DNA from: Physcia stellaris
Taxonomy: Eukaryota > Ascomycota > Lecanoromycetes > Caliciales > Physciaceae
Length of the DNA stretch: 64,000 nucleotides
NCBI GenBank assembly: GCA_018902385.1
Contig: JABSSW010000010.1
Span: 806,001 to 870,000, forward strand
Reading direction: 5' to 3'
Under the pieces are notes generated by a model, which saw nothing but the letters and a program-made list of their open reading frames with translations, was not told the DNA's origin and did no database searches. Both the position numbers and the translations under genes were made by a program. Below, piece after piece: positions 5,796 through 11,325 of the stretch. How positions within the stretch are numbered: position 1 is the stretch's first letter; every line of letters begins with the position of its first letter.

Positions 5796-5971
5796 TGTTG
5801 GAGCATAAGGATCCAGGGCAATAGATGACCTAATCGGATAATATGACGACCCGTGCATCACGTGCTTCTTAGCACCTTGACACTTTCACATCATGTATTC
5901 TCATCTTTTAAATAAATGTTTTTTAATCAATTGAATCAATGCATTCATTCAAAATCATTGTTATTTTGATA
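5796..5971 (+). repeat. 5' LTR of copia element
   Basis: It starts TGTTGGAGCATAAGG, a usual copia LTR start, and ends TTGATA. It matches 11150-11325 over 176 positions without gaps. The 27 differences I counted are all transitions at CpC/CpT or the complementary GpG/ApG. The first ~110 bases retain the ancestral bases; from offset ~119 onward this copy is the mutated one. Confidence 0.92.
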
Positions 5972-5987
5972 AATTATGAGCTCGACG
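5972..5987 (+). other. Putative primer-binding site (initiator-tRNA anticodon-stem type)
   Basis: Directly after the 5' LTR is AATTATGAGCTCGACG. The core TTATGAG is complementary to the CAU anticodon loop of initiator tRNA-Met. This resembles the half-tRNA primer described for Drosophila copia rather than a 3'-CCA primer. The fungal tRNA sequence was not available to compare, so this is moderate evidence. Confidence 0.5.
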
Positions 5988-6579
5988 TTTTTGTTTGCTT
6001 ATAAAACAACAAAGCGTCGAATTTTTGAATCAATTTTATTAAACAATCGTTTACAGCATTGCTGTATTGCAAAACAAATTCGAAAAACGCGAACAATTTC
6101 ATCGATTTTCGAATTTCAATCACTTCTATTTACATTATTTTATTATTTTAATTGAGTCAAATTCGATCATTCAATGCATATATCATATCACGATGACGAA
6201 AAAAATCGAAAAAAAATTTTTTTGAAAATTTTCAAAATTAACAAATTCGCAAAATTATCATGAATGAAATCGTCAAATAATCAACATCATGCGAATTGCA
6301 AATTTTTACGAATTTTTCGATTTTCAAAATTTTCGAACAAAATTCACAAAATCAAATGACGAAATATGAAAGAAAATGTTGTATGTTCAACAACGAAATT
6401 TCGATCAAAACGTTTTAATTTGAATTCGAGAAAATTCAACATTTGTCGATCGAATCGTCAACATGTGTGATTTCAACATACAACAATTATTCGATTTTGT
6501 TTGAATTGCGAAAAAAACATGAAAATATTTAAAGAAACGATATTTATCACAGAATTGATTTCACAAATGATTCGTTTTT

Positions 6580-7100
6580 AATCGTTTGAAACAAATTCAT
6601 TATTCGAATTGCAAAAACGTTACAAAATATGAAATTGCATACAAAAACATTTTCAAAAAAATCATCGATTTGAAAATCACGATGAAAAACGCAATAATGA
6701 TAAAAATGTTCAACAATTTCGATTCAATTTTCGAAACGTTTTTAATCGTCAAAAACAACGAAACAAAAAAATGACGATTTTTTCAACATCGACAAATTCA
6801 TTATTGCTGTGAAACAAAAAAAAATCGAATAATTTTGATCAATTTCAATTTGATTCGAATCGACGATGACAAAAATAACAACAACAATAACAATCGTGAC
6901 GATCGCAATTTTCGAAATAATCGTGAAAATGAACGTGATACAAATAACAATAATGATTTTATTGAATTTTTATGCAAGAAATGTTACATCATTCATCAAT
7001 TCGACAATGAGCATTGTTCGAATAAAAACGAAATTTGCGATAACAACGATTGTGAAAATTCACGAAATCATAAATCAATCAACTGTATTTGATTTGAAAA
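6580..7100 (+). pseudogene. gag remnant of copia element
   Basis: Short frames here encode Asn/Lys/Ile-rich peptides. One contains CKKC, then His residues, then Cys at about 6973-7010, which could be a decayed zinc knuckle (normally C-x2-C-x4-H-x4-C). The spacing is not canonical. The assignment rests mainly on position between the primer-binding site and the reverse transcriptase. Confidence 0.4.
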
Positions 7101-9031
7101 AATTCGTTATTTTGAATGAATAATCGAACAAAGAAAAAAACATTTTTACAACGAATTTTGATTTCATTATTTTTTTACGTCAAAAATTCACATTGAAATA
7201 GTACAAATATCGATTAATAAAATGTTTTTAATCGTTTTTCATTTTTTATTTGAATTTTCGATTTCGAAATTATTCATCATTGTTCAAACAATAAAGAATT
7301 GTTTTCAAAACAATTGAAAAAAATCAACGATATCGCAAATACAACAAGCGATAAAACATTCAACGTTGAAAATTTAAACAATATTACTATTATTTTTTTT
7401 AGTAAAAAAATTTTGACGCTTATTAATGTCATGTATATTTTTGATTTCATCGTCAACTTAATCAATACATCGAAATTGTATCGTCGACAATGAATCATTA
7501 CATATTTTGTTGATAAATCAATCGAATTACACAAAAACGACGATTTAATAATTCAAATCGATTTAATTAACGATCTTTTCGTATTGCGTATCGCTCAGAA
7601 CTCGATAAATACGATTTTCACTGTCACGAAAATTGTTATCTTTGCGATATTCGTGTCAAAAACATACGTTTTCGCGTTTATTAAATTTATTATCGATTTG
7701 AAAATTTGACATCGTCGTTTGATTTATTCGAAATATCGTAACGTCATCGCAAATTTTAATAAAATTATCGATATGAAAAAAGTCAAAAAATTTGTGTCAA
7801 ATACATTTTGCGAATTTTGCATGTTCGATCGTCAATAAATCGAAATATTCAAAATTTTTATTTGAAAATTTGCAAAGTTTGCGATCAAAATCAACGTTAA
7901 CATCGACGATTCATTCTTTATAACGATAAGAAATAATCGTATTTTCATATTTATCAAATGTTACGACATTGACATGATGTTTGAATTCGTTCGAAAACAT
8001 ACATTCGAAATATACAAATATGTAATCGATTTCGTCATTTGAATTAAACGTCAAACGAAATGCGATGTCAAAATCATTGTAACAAACGACGAATTCGATT
8101 TCATCGTTTTCGATAATTACTTTAAAAAAATCGACATTCAATGAAAATCATTTGTTTTCGATACGTTTTAACAAAATGATTATATCGAACGAATCATGTA
8201 TATCGTCATGAATTTTGTACGTTTTGTATTGAAAAACATGCGATTGTCGAAAAAATTTTGAAATTTCATTGATCAAAACGTCGTTTACGTCAAGAATCGT
8301 ATCATTATTACAAGCGATAATAATAATAAAATCATTATATCGTTCGAAACGATCAATGAAAAAATTTTCAACGTATTTAATTTTCGAACGTTGAATTGCA
8401 AAACATATATTCACGTTTTCAAAATCATCAAACGTCACAAATTTGACGATCGTTCATGAAAAAACATTTTCGTAAAATACGCAAATAATAATCAATGAAA
8501 AATTTACAATTCACGCATTCGAAAAATTCACGTGATTAAAAACGTTCGATTCGACGAAAATTATTCATATTACGATCAAAATCATCGAATTTTTTCAAAT
8601 CTTCATGAACACAACGACGAATTCGAAATAAACGAATTTTGACATTCGAAAAACGATGTCTGATTCGATTTTCGATTCGAAAAAAGTTTTGATTTTTCAA
8701 AAAAATTTCATTTTCAAAAAAAACATTTTCAAAAAAATTGTTTTCGTTTTTTCAAATTTCAATGACGTCAAAATTTTTATCGTCACGTGACGATGATTCG
8801 AATGCAAATGATTCAAATGCAAAAAATGCAAAATTTGAAAAAAAAAATTTGTCGAAATTTCGAAAAATCATGATTATTCAAACGATTCGAATTCGATTTT
8901 TATCGATGAATTTCAAAATTTTTCATTATTTGATGATTTTATTTTTGAAATTTCAATTTTTTTTTTTAAAGTTTCATTGCAAAATGAAAATACAATTTTC
9001 GAAATTCGCGAAAAATTGAATGAAAACGAAT

Positions 9032-9230: not shown

Positions 9231-9800
9231 CATTCACATATTGTTTTTGACAATTTCATTAACATCAACACGCAAAAAACGAAATAAAACATTTTCGTTA
9301 TCATTTTCGAATCGTGATTTTCGTTTAAAAATCGATGCAATTATATGTTCGAACTATTACAAAACAAACAATTTTGACATCAAGCGCATAAAAAACATCA
9401 AAAAATCAAAAAATTTGTCAATATCGTGAACAACGTGTATCGAATCAAACAAATGTTCAAAATTCACATTCATATGATTCGTGTTTTTCATGCATTACAA
9501 AACGATGAAAGTTTCGATTTCGATCACGTTTTTGAATCAATAAATTACAAAAAAATTTTTAAATCTTTTTATTGATCAAATTGAAAAGTCGCAATGAAAT
9601 TGAAAATTGCATTTCATATCAAAAACGACATTTGAAAATTAATCAACAAATCACAAAAACGAACGATTATTATTGATCGTTGAATTTTCAAGTTAAAATA
9701 TGAAATTGACGATCAGATATTTCGATTCAAAACTCGTTAAATTGTACATGAATACAAATAACAAAAAAGAATAAATTACAACGAAATTTGAATCGAAATT

Positions 9801-10412
9801 GTGAAATTTTTTTCGTTTCGTATTTTGTTTGCAATTGCAACAAAACGACGTTTGCAAATTCAACAAATGAACATCGTTACAACTTTTTTGTATGAATTGT
9901 TGAATGAAAATGTATATGTCAATCAATTTATCGATTTCATCGAAAATTCTAAATTGATTTGTCATCTTTTGAAAACATTATATGATTTTAAATAGTCATT
10001 TCGCGTATGATATGAAATCTTACATTTCTATTTGAAAAAATTCGATTTCGATATTATTGAATTCGATCATAATGTTTTCGTTTCGAAAAACAAAAAATAT
10101 TACATCGTTGTTTACGTGAACGATTTATTTTTATTCGATTTCGATATCAAATACATCAATTTCATTAAGATTCGATTGAATAAACGTTTCGAAATGATCG
10201 ATTTCGATTTCGCACAACATTATTTAAACATCGAAATAATTAAAAAAAATGATTTCATATTTTTGCGTCAAACTACATATTTAAAAAAGATATTGAAACG
10301 TTTCGACATGAATAAATGCTCATTTGTGAATTCGTCAATGAAGTTTGAACTTGTCAACGTTTTAATTTTTATCAAAAAAAATCAACAAATCAATGACGAC
10401 ATTTTGTATTGA
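9801..10412 (+). pseudogene. copia reverse transcriptase remnant
   Basis: The frames give QMNIVTTFLYELLNENVYVN, aligning with the copia block 'lDVktAFLnGdLdEeVYm'. KTLYDFK follows, matching 'LyGLKQ'. After two stops comes FVSKNKKYYIVVYVNDLFLF, where the catalytic YVDD is changed to YVND (GpG-type G-to-A). It continues into YLKKILKRFDMNKCSFVNS. Then at 10434-10643 MYVVINIRSNIMYTICLFNK matches the region before RNase H ('lmYl..tRPDi'). Stops and the lost Asp make it inactive. Confidence 0.85.
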
Positions 10413-11140
10413 TATGATTCGATCGTAAAATCATTGATGTATGTTGTAATCAATATTCGCTCAAATATTATGTATACAATTTGTTTATTCAATAAATTTT
10501 GTTTCAATTTCGATTTTATTCATATGATCGTTTTTCAACGTTTATTCAAATACATTCAAAACACATTTCGTTATGACATCGAATACGTTCTCGACGAAAA
10601 AATTTTCATGAATTTATCGATGCAAATTGAACAAAAAACGTAAAAAATCGTCGTTCGATCAATGAATATGTATTTTTCATTGTCGACGAAACAATATTTT
10701 GAATTTCGAAACGTCAAAATTTCGTCGCTTTATCGAGTTGTGAATTCGAATATTACGCGTTGAACGAAACGAATAAAAAAATCAAATGATTTCGTGTTTT
10801 ATTATTCGAATTCGATCACATTGATGTCGTTTTTGTATTAATTTGAACGAATAATCAAAACGTCATTGCATTCAACAAAAATTTCGAATTTCACAAACGA
10901 ACGAAACACATTGACGTCAAATATCATTGAATTCGTGAAATCATTGAAAAAAAATTAATTCAAATCGATTACGTTTTTATCGTCAACATGACTGTCGATG
11001 AATTAACGAAAATTTTGACGTTCAAAACGCATGCTCGATTTTTTATTTTGTTGCAAATGATTTATTAAAACGATGCGTAAAATTTAATTTTATCATATCA
11101 TGATTCAAAAGTTGTTGTTTTGATCGATTCGATCATTATT

Positions 11141-11149
11141 GAAAAAAAA
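11141..11149 (+). other. Polypurine tract
   Basis: The run GAAAAAAAA directly abuts the TG of the 3' LTR, as expected for plus-strand DNA priming. It was probably more G-rich before G-to-A change. Confidence 0.6.
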
Positions 11150-11325
11150 TGTTGAAACATAAAAATTCAAAACAATAAATGATTTAATCGAATAATATGA
11201 CGATTCGTGCATCACGTGTTTTTTAACATTTTGACATTTTCACATCATGTATTTTCATTTTTTAAATAGATGTTTTCTAGTCAATTGAATCAATGCATTC
11301 ATTCAGAATCATTGTTATCTTGATA
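11150..11325 (+). repeat. 3' LTR of copia element
   Basis: Gapless partner of 5796-5971. Its first ~110 bases have no CpC, CpT, ApG or GpG (fully mutated). From offset 119 (11269) these dinucleotides reappear (TTTTCTAGTC, CAGAATC, ATCTTG), where the 5' copy is the mutated one. Confidence 0.92.

Follow-up and report, generated by a model that had tools for sequence, protein, structure and literature searches.

What has stripped a retrotransposon of two of its cytosine dinucleotides and kept the other two? The question is raised by a copia-type long terminal repeat (LTR) retrotransposon at 5796-11325 in a 64,000-nucleotide stretch of Physcia stellaris DNA (assembly GCA_018902385.1, contig JABSSW010000010.1, positions 806,001 to 870,000), hereafter the window, which has an overall GC content of 0.48 and is part of a genome of 43.97 Mb in 147 contigs. 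We find that cytosines followed by a pyrimidine (CpC and CpT, together CpY) have been turned to T on both strands, that unrelated repeats, including a relic of ribosomal DNA (rDNA), obey the same base rule, and that the adjacent unique DNA has been spared. In our opinion this is probably a defence of the repeat-induced point mutation (RIP) type with a changed rule for the 3' neighbour, CpC > CpT taking the place of CpA. We assign it to RIP because it behaves like RIP; it departs in the CpA preference, the tested feature by which the classical form is marked.

The copia element in the window

The element and its parts are as follows:
5796..11325, forward strand: copia-type LTR retrotransposon, CpC/CpT depleted on both strands (dinucleotide counts, copies, RVT_2 piece)
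5796..5971, forward strand: 5' LTR, 176 bp, outer part less mutated (LTR alignment, edge taper)
11150..11325, forward strand: 3' LTR, 176 bp, terminal part less mutated (LTR alignment, edge taper)
5791..5795, no strand: target-site duplication AACCA, left copy, 5 bp
11326..11330, no strand: target-site duplication AACCA, right copy, 5 bp
10011..10409, forward strand: open piece of the reverse-transcriptase region (PF07727 RVT_2, copia reverse transcriptase, E 2.4e-14)
9063..9252, forward strand: nested solo LTR of another family, 190 bp (5-bp duplication ATTTC at 9058-9062 and 9253-9257)

With a GC content of 0.262, the whole element contains 6 CC, 6 GG, 54 CT and 55 AG, together with 400 CA, 303 TG and 312 CG. 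The counts that the initial annotation gave for the interval 6241-6540 are exact: C stands in CpA 25 times and in CpG 17 times, there is no CpC, CpT or GpG, and three ApG are present. Its description of the LTR pair is equally accurate, the two aligning without gaps over 176 positions with 27 differences, every one of them a transition (27/27) and located at CpC (10) or CpT (17), and none at the 38 CpA/CpG positions. The mutated state is found in the 3' LTR at 22 of these differences (12 C>T and 10 G>A) and in the 5' LTR at 5 (2 and 3). Besides the copy in the window (C10) the genome has three more, designated C90, C4 and C6.

Composition of AT-rich DNA across the genome

Composition beyond the window was studied in 20 further stretches and 10 loci from a transposase search, a sample biased towards contig starts and repeats. 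Pooled 500-bp windows were divided into 293 with GC <0.31 (AT-rich, a limit of our own choosing), 213 with GC >0.44 (GC-rich) and 59 in between; L013 and L021 share 300 bp in this pool, and L042, which overlaps L038, was excluded. In the AT-rich DNA CC has nearly gone and CA and CG are kept. CC/GG amounts to 0.03% (vs. 5.84% in GC-rich windows), CT/AG to 0.74% (6.55%), CA/TG to 5.83% (6.96%), CG to 5.82% (5.59%) and TA to 6.26% (4.51%). CC and GG are both zero in 260 of the 293 AT-rich windows, with a maximum of 8, and at the 1-kb scale CC/GG stays below 0.3% in 137 of the 143 windows of GC <0.31 (highest value 1.25%). Six 1-kb interior stretches taken at arbitrary places, too few to estimate a genome fraction, included one that was AT-rich, with CC at 0.00. 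The copia element is not a lone compositional outlier; the depletion affects many repeat families.

An exhaustive CpY to TpY change on both strands, simulated on the GC-rich windows, brings GC down to 0.25, the value observed in the AT-rich ones, with simulated and observed values of 1.43 and 1.43 for GpC, 6.67 and 6.65 for TC/GA, 19.31 and 18.85 for TT/AA, and 13.65 and 13.69 for AT. What this leaves over is a modest CpA loss and TpA gain. The same exercise with a CpA rule gives GC 0.36 and TA 18.4, and with a CpG rule GC 0.39 and CG 0.

Standard RIP indices score this DNA as not RIPed, as had been anticipated from the element alone: both standard thresholds are passed by 0 of the 293 AT-rich windows. 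Median values are 0.45 for TpA/ApT, which stays below 0.89 throughout, and 1.36 for (CpA+TpG)/(ApC+GpT), which is <=1.03 in 16 windows and <=0.75 in one (stringent thresholds are >1.15 for the product index and <=0.75 for the substrate index; PMC7882544). A CpY index, (CC+GG+CT+AG)/(CA+TG+2CG), has a median of 0.053 in the same windows. Stop codons tell a similar story. The 150 reverse-transcriptase matches scored (out of 527 candidates) contain 286 stops, i.e., 250 TGA, 33 TAA and 3 TAG, only 10 matches being stop-free, and the transposase search gave 44 TGA and 3 TAA. TGA would dominate because CpY mutation turns TGG into TGA and spares CAA and CAG, from which a CpA rule would instead generate TAA and TAG. 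With stops arising mainly from TGG, the proteins are presumably lost more by way of changes of Gly and Pro.

Direction of change and the 3'-base rule

To polarise the changes, mutated copies were compared with less mutated or unmutated references. The figures are sites turned to T, by 3' neighbour, over sites in the reference copy:
copia C4 (partly mutated) to C6: CpC 77/77, CpT 322/390, CpA 29/693, CpG 13/610
copia C4 to C10: CpC 65/77, CpT 324/390, CpA 46/694, CpG 12/610
copia C4 to C90: CpC 76/77, CpT 316/391, CpA 44/693, CpG 8/609
gypsy L044 (unmutated, GC 0.53) to L025 (mutated): CpC 189/193, CpT 123/139, CpA 22/171, CpG 4/178
gypsy L043 (sister of L044) to L025: CpC 198/208, CpT 147/164, CpA 28/192, CpG 11/206
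DDE transposon L033 (stop-free) to L039 (partly mutated): CpC 221/279, CpT 185/304, CpA 20/295, CpG 18/310
rDNA relic L045 against the Rfam consensus: CpC 24/26, CpU 16/32, CpA 0/24, CpG 0/27

The four polarised tests, with copia, gypsy, DDE transposon and rDNA references, are in agreement. Between L044 and L025, 151 C>T and 187 G>A changes make up 338 of the 349 differences in 1,253 columns; of the rest, 6 are in the reverse direction and 5 are transversions. The order of susceptibility is CpC > CpT >> CpA and CpG; in L037, CC is down to 0.00-0.10% and CT is still at 2.6-3.6%, that is, CpC is lost before CpT. Together with the LTR differences, these data support the proposal of a repeat-associated C-to-T process that acts on both strands and requires a 3' pyrimidine. 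The accompanying claim that CpA and CpG are both spared holds for CpG, which is changed little or not at all, and has to be amended for CpA, which is weakly mutated (0 to 15% over the comparisons made); nor are the two targets equivalent, CpC being the faster.

The comparison with the rDNA relic does not depend on the choice of a transposon copy, because its reference is the external Rfam consensus. It was limited to conserved columns, namely those with an upper-case consensus letter beside another upper-case one, in both 5.8S blocks, 6 large-subunit (LSU) blocks and 1 small-subunit (SSU) block, poorly aligned blocks having been dropped. An original composition poor in CpC and CpT, or an artefact of sequencing or assembly, might be suspected from the fact that all copies of the copia family are depleted to some degree. 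However, GC-rich relatives exist in two other families, there are intermediate copies, the other copies and unmutated relatives had C at the sites concerned, and the relic follows the same rule relative to a conserved reference. We give such explanations next to no credence, and consider them refuted by the polarised comparisons.

The relic itself (G000:C41, ca. 45899-46052) is an AT-rich, mutated piece of rDNA with 5.8S, LSU and SSU parts that conforms to the CpY rule. A normal 5.8S gene was not among the matches listed (39 of 2,644 first-look candidates were scored), the sole match being the relic, and an exact search of the assembly for the ITS3 primer gave no match.

The base on the 5' side has little influence: between L044 and L025 the changed fractions are ACC 38/39, CCC 46/47, GCC 71/72 and TCC 34/35. 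This bears on two other sources of C-to-T change. Ultraviolet damage would strike dipyrimidines, which CpC and CpT are, but TCA (6/38) and TCG (2/53) are barely changed in comparison with ACC and GCC, and unique DNA is unmutated, so that these contexts refute it and we attach practically zero probability to it. A cytosine deaminase, AID/APOBEC-like or other, acting on repeats or on single-stranded replication intermediates would produce C-to-T changes with a sharp context, as found here. AID and APOBEC enzymes have a 5'-neighbour preference. No effect of the 5' base is seen before C or T, however, both strands are hit, and the rDNA relic, which is no retroelement, is mutated as well. We reject APOBEC-type editing on these grounds and regard any such deaminase as very unlikely. 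An APOBEC_N profile search of the genome gave no match, but its control was silent too.

Repeat targeting, edges and exceptions

The unique DNA beside the copia element is unmutated, and the depletion ends at the element's edge. Towards this edge the mutation tapers off: the first two 50-bp segments of the window copy retain 12 and 8 CpY and the final one 4, with an interior mean of 0.87, and in the C4 copy residual CpY is raised over the outer 200-300 bp, up to 14 per 50 bp vs. 3.91. Only these two copies, both in normal flanks, have the taper; none is clear in C90 and C6, which lie within AT-rich DNA. Normal flanks, edge taper and the several families affected point to a restriction to repeated DNA, from which one pair escapes. 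Among the sampled stretches there are 107 repeat pairs of at least 200 bp, with a side of GC >0.38 in 9 rows.

The solo LTR nested at 9063-9252 retains 12.3 CpY per 100 bp vs. 1.2-1.5 in the surrounding element and, with ca. 25 in GC-rich DNA by the pooled percentages, is about half depleted. It is missing from the other three copia copies. The stretch 9058-9252 was considered as a unique-DNA control and rejected, as it has 31 matches in the genome (itself included) and is a solo LTR. It shows only that segments had separate histories, or that a short repeat makes a poor target; its 190 bp are less mutated than the host element, for which age could also account. Several of the 31 matches share an orientation and are separated by ca. 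7.5 kb, like the LTR pairs of a full element.

Several observations weigh against a RIP-type process. This many-copy solo LTR is, as said, only about half depleted. The gypsy sequences L043 (G000:C5:1164500-1168000) and L044 (G000:C12:58500-62000), 95.5% identical over 3.3 kb, are both unmutated, their 144 differences having no clear direction or context, and therefore not all repeats are hit now; they are either recent arrivals or escapees. Lastly, rounds of RIP on one strand are expected to leave strand blocks. One test gave a weak signal of this kind (178 runs vs. 200 expected, p 0.016), and in two further tests blocks were absent (p 0.33 and p 0.59).

Candidate enzymes

The search for RID and DIM-2 genes that the initial annotation had called for yielded, with the PF00145 profile, 4 matches in three genes. 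Two of them appear by sequence to be RID-family genes: L011 (G000:C5:497807-501292, near 499 kb) has EQT as its motif VI triad and L009 (G000:C6:790057-794028, near 792 kb) has EET, triads that have been assigned to the Masc1/RID group (PMC6709928). In both, the frame shifts after motif VIII at a putative intron and continues to a GNAVPP motif, and in L009 another stop follows between motif IX and motif X, where there may be a further intron. Our rendering of the PROSITE pattern C5_MTASE_1 is absent from L011 and present in L009; 18 of 19 Masc1/RID members are reported to lack it (PMC4352252). The catalytic domain is C-terminal in L011 and L009, as in some members of that family (PMC2432034). 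The third gene, L010, whose triad is the canonical ENV and which carries DUF7893 at its N-terminus, looks DIM-2-like, a label that is our own reading. The genome also has a match to a MAT alpha-box gene.

A DIM-2-like gene is what would be needed for passive loss, in which methylation of CpC and CpT in heterochromatin is followed by slow deamination with no active RIP, and the DIM-2 of N. crassa is given a CpT preference in a review (PMC13297926). Between L044 and L025, however, 312 of 332 CpY have changed vs. 5 transversions in the 1,253 columns, which would be too fast for ordinary decay, and the depletion halts at the edge of the copia element. We therefore consider passive loss unlikely.

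In the RIP-type process that we favour, repeated DNA would be recognised, presumably before meiosis, and C on both strands would become T if followed by a pyrimidine, faster in CpC than in CpT; CpA would be attacked weakly and CpG scarcely or not at all. The process would be active and premeiotic. From the gene content, the acting enzyme may be a RID-family protein with an altered target-recognition region, the likeliest being one of the two above, EQT at C5 or EET at C6. More tentatively, we suggest that a RIP lineage might here read the 3' base in reverse (a pyrimidine, not A), perhaps via the EET paralogue of RID, and that some fungi classed as RIP-negative by the TpA/ApT and CpA-based indices may run this CpY form.

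Comparison with known systems

Classical RIP, as in Neurospora crassa and Zymoseptoria tritici, shares with this genome the C-to-T change on both strands of repeats, the sparing of unique DNA, and the RID and DIM-2 homologues, but it prefers CpA, which is nearly spared here. Of the 242 mutations reported from Zymoseptoria crosses, 240 fell in CpA and 2 in CpT (PMC10294615). A CpT target is shared with the CpT-biased RIP of Magnaporthe oryzae, Botrytis cinerea and Sclerotinia sclerotiorum, although CpT accompanies CpA there, whereas in this genome the leading target is CpC and CpA is hit only weakly. Botrytis and Sclerotinia have two RID homologues each (PMC4352252; PMC2432034), no species is entered with CpC in the species table of PMC4352252, and CpT-dominant alignments are described among RIP-positive controls (PMC7882544). 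In Monilinia, CpC>TpT double mutations have been reported (PMC8959702), but the pattern is the classical CpA one. For Rhizoctonia solani AG8, CpC is listed as the closest-spaced context of single-nucleotide polymorphisms, every 214 bp; there, however, the authors give a CpG bias and an equal effect in genes and repeats (PMC4014442). A check of the literature for CpC/CpT-preferring RIP thus turned up a published CpT co-preference, and no CpC-led RIP with CpA spared was found in a search of mostly titles and abstract starts, with Clutterbuck 2011 outside its scope, so that an earlier report is possible.

A screen of 1,239 genomes describes RIP-like defences as sharing a CpA preference (PMC12543289), which the near-saturated CpY pattern found here contradicts. 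CpY mutation would go unnoticed in surveys that rely on TpA/ApT and CpA indices. For purified RID protein, no detectable methyltransferase activity is reported (PMC13297926). In this genome the specificity of the process would have changed in nature, so that comparing the target-recognition regions of RID proteins could locate the part that reads the 3' base.

Elsewhere in the window, an 893-aa frame at 35498-38179 has an E1-E2 ATPase domain (PF00122, E 5.6e-38) and a HAD hydrolase domain and looks like a heavy-metal P-type ATPase.

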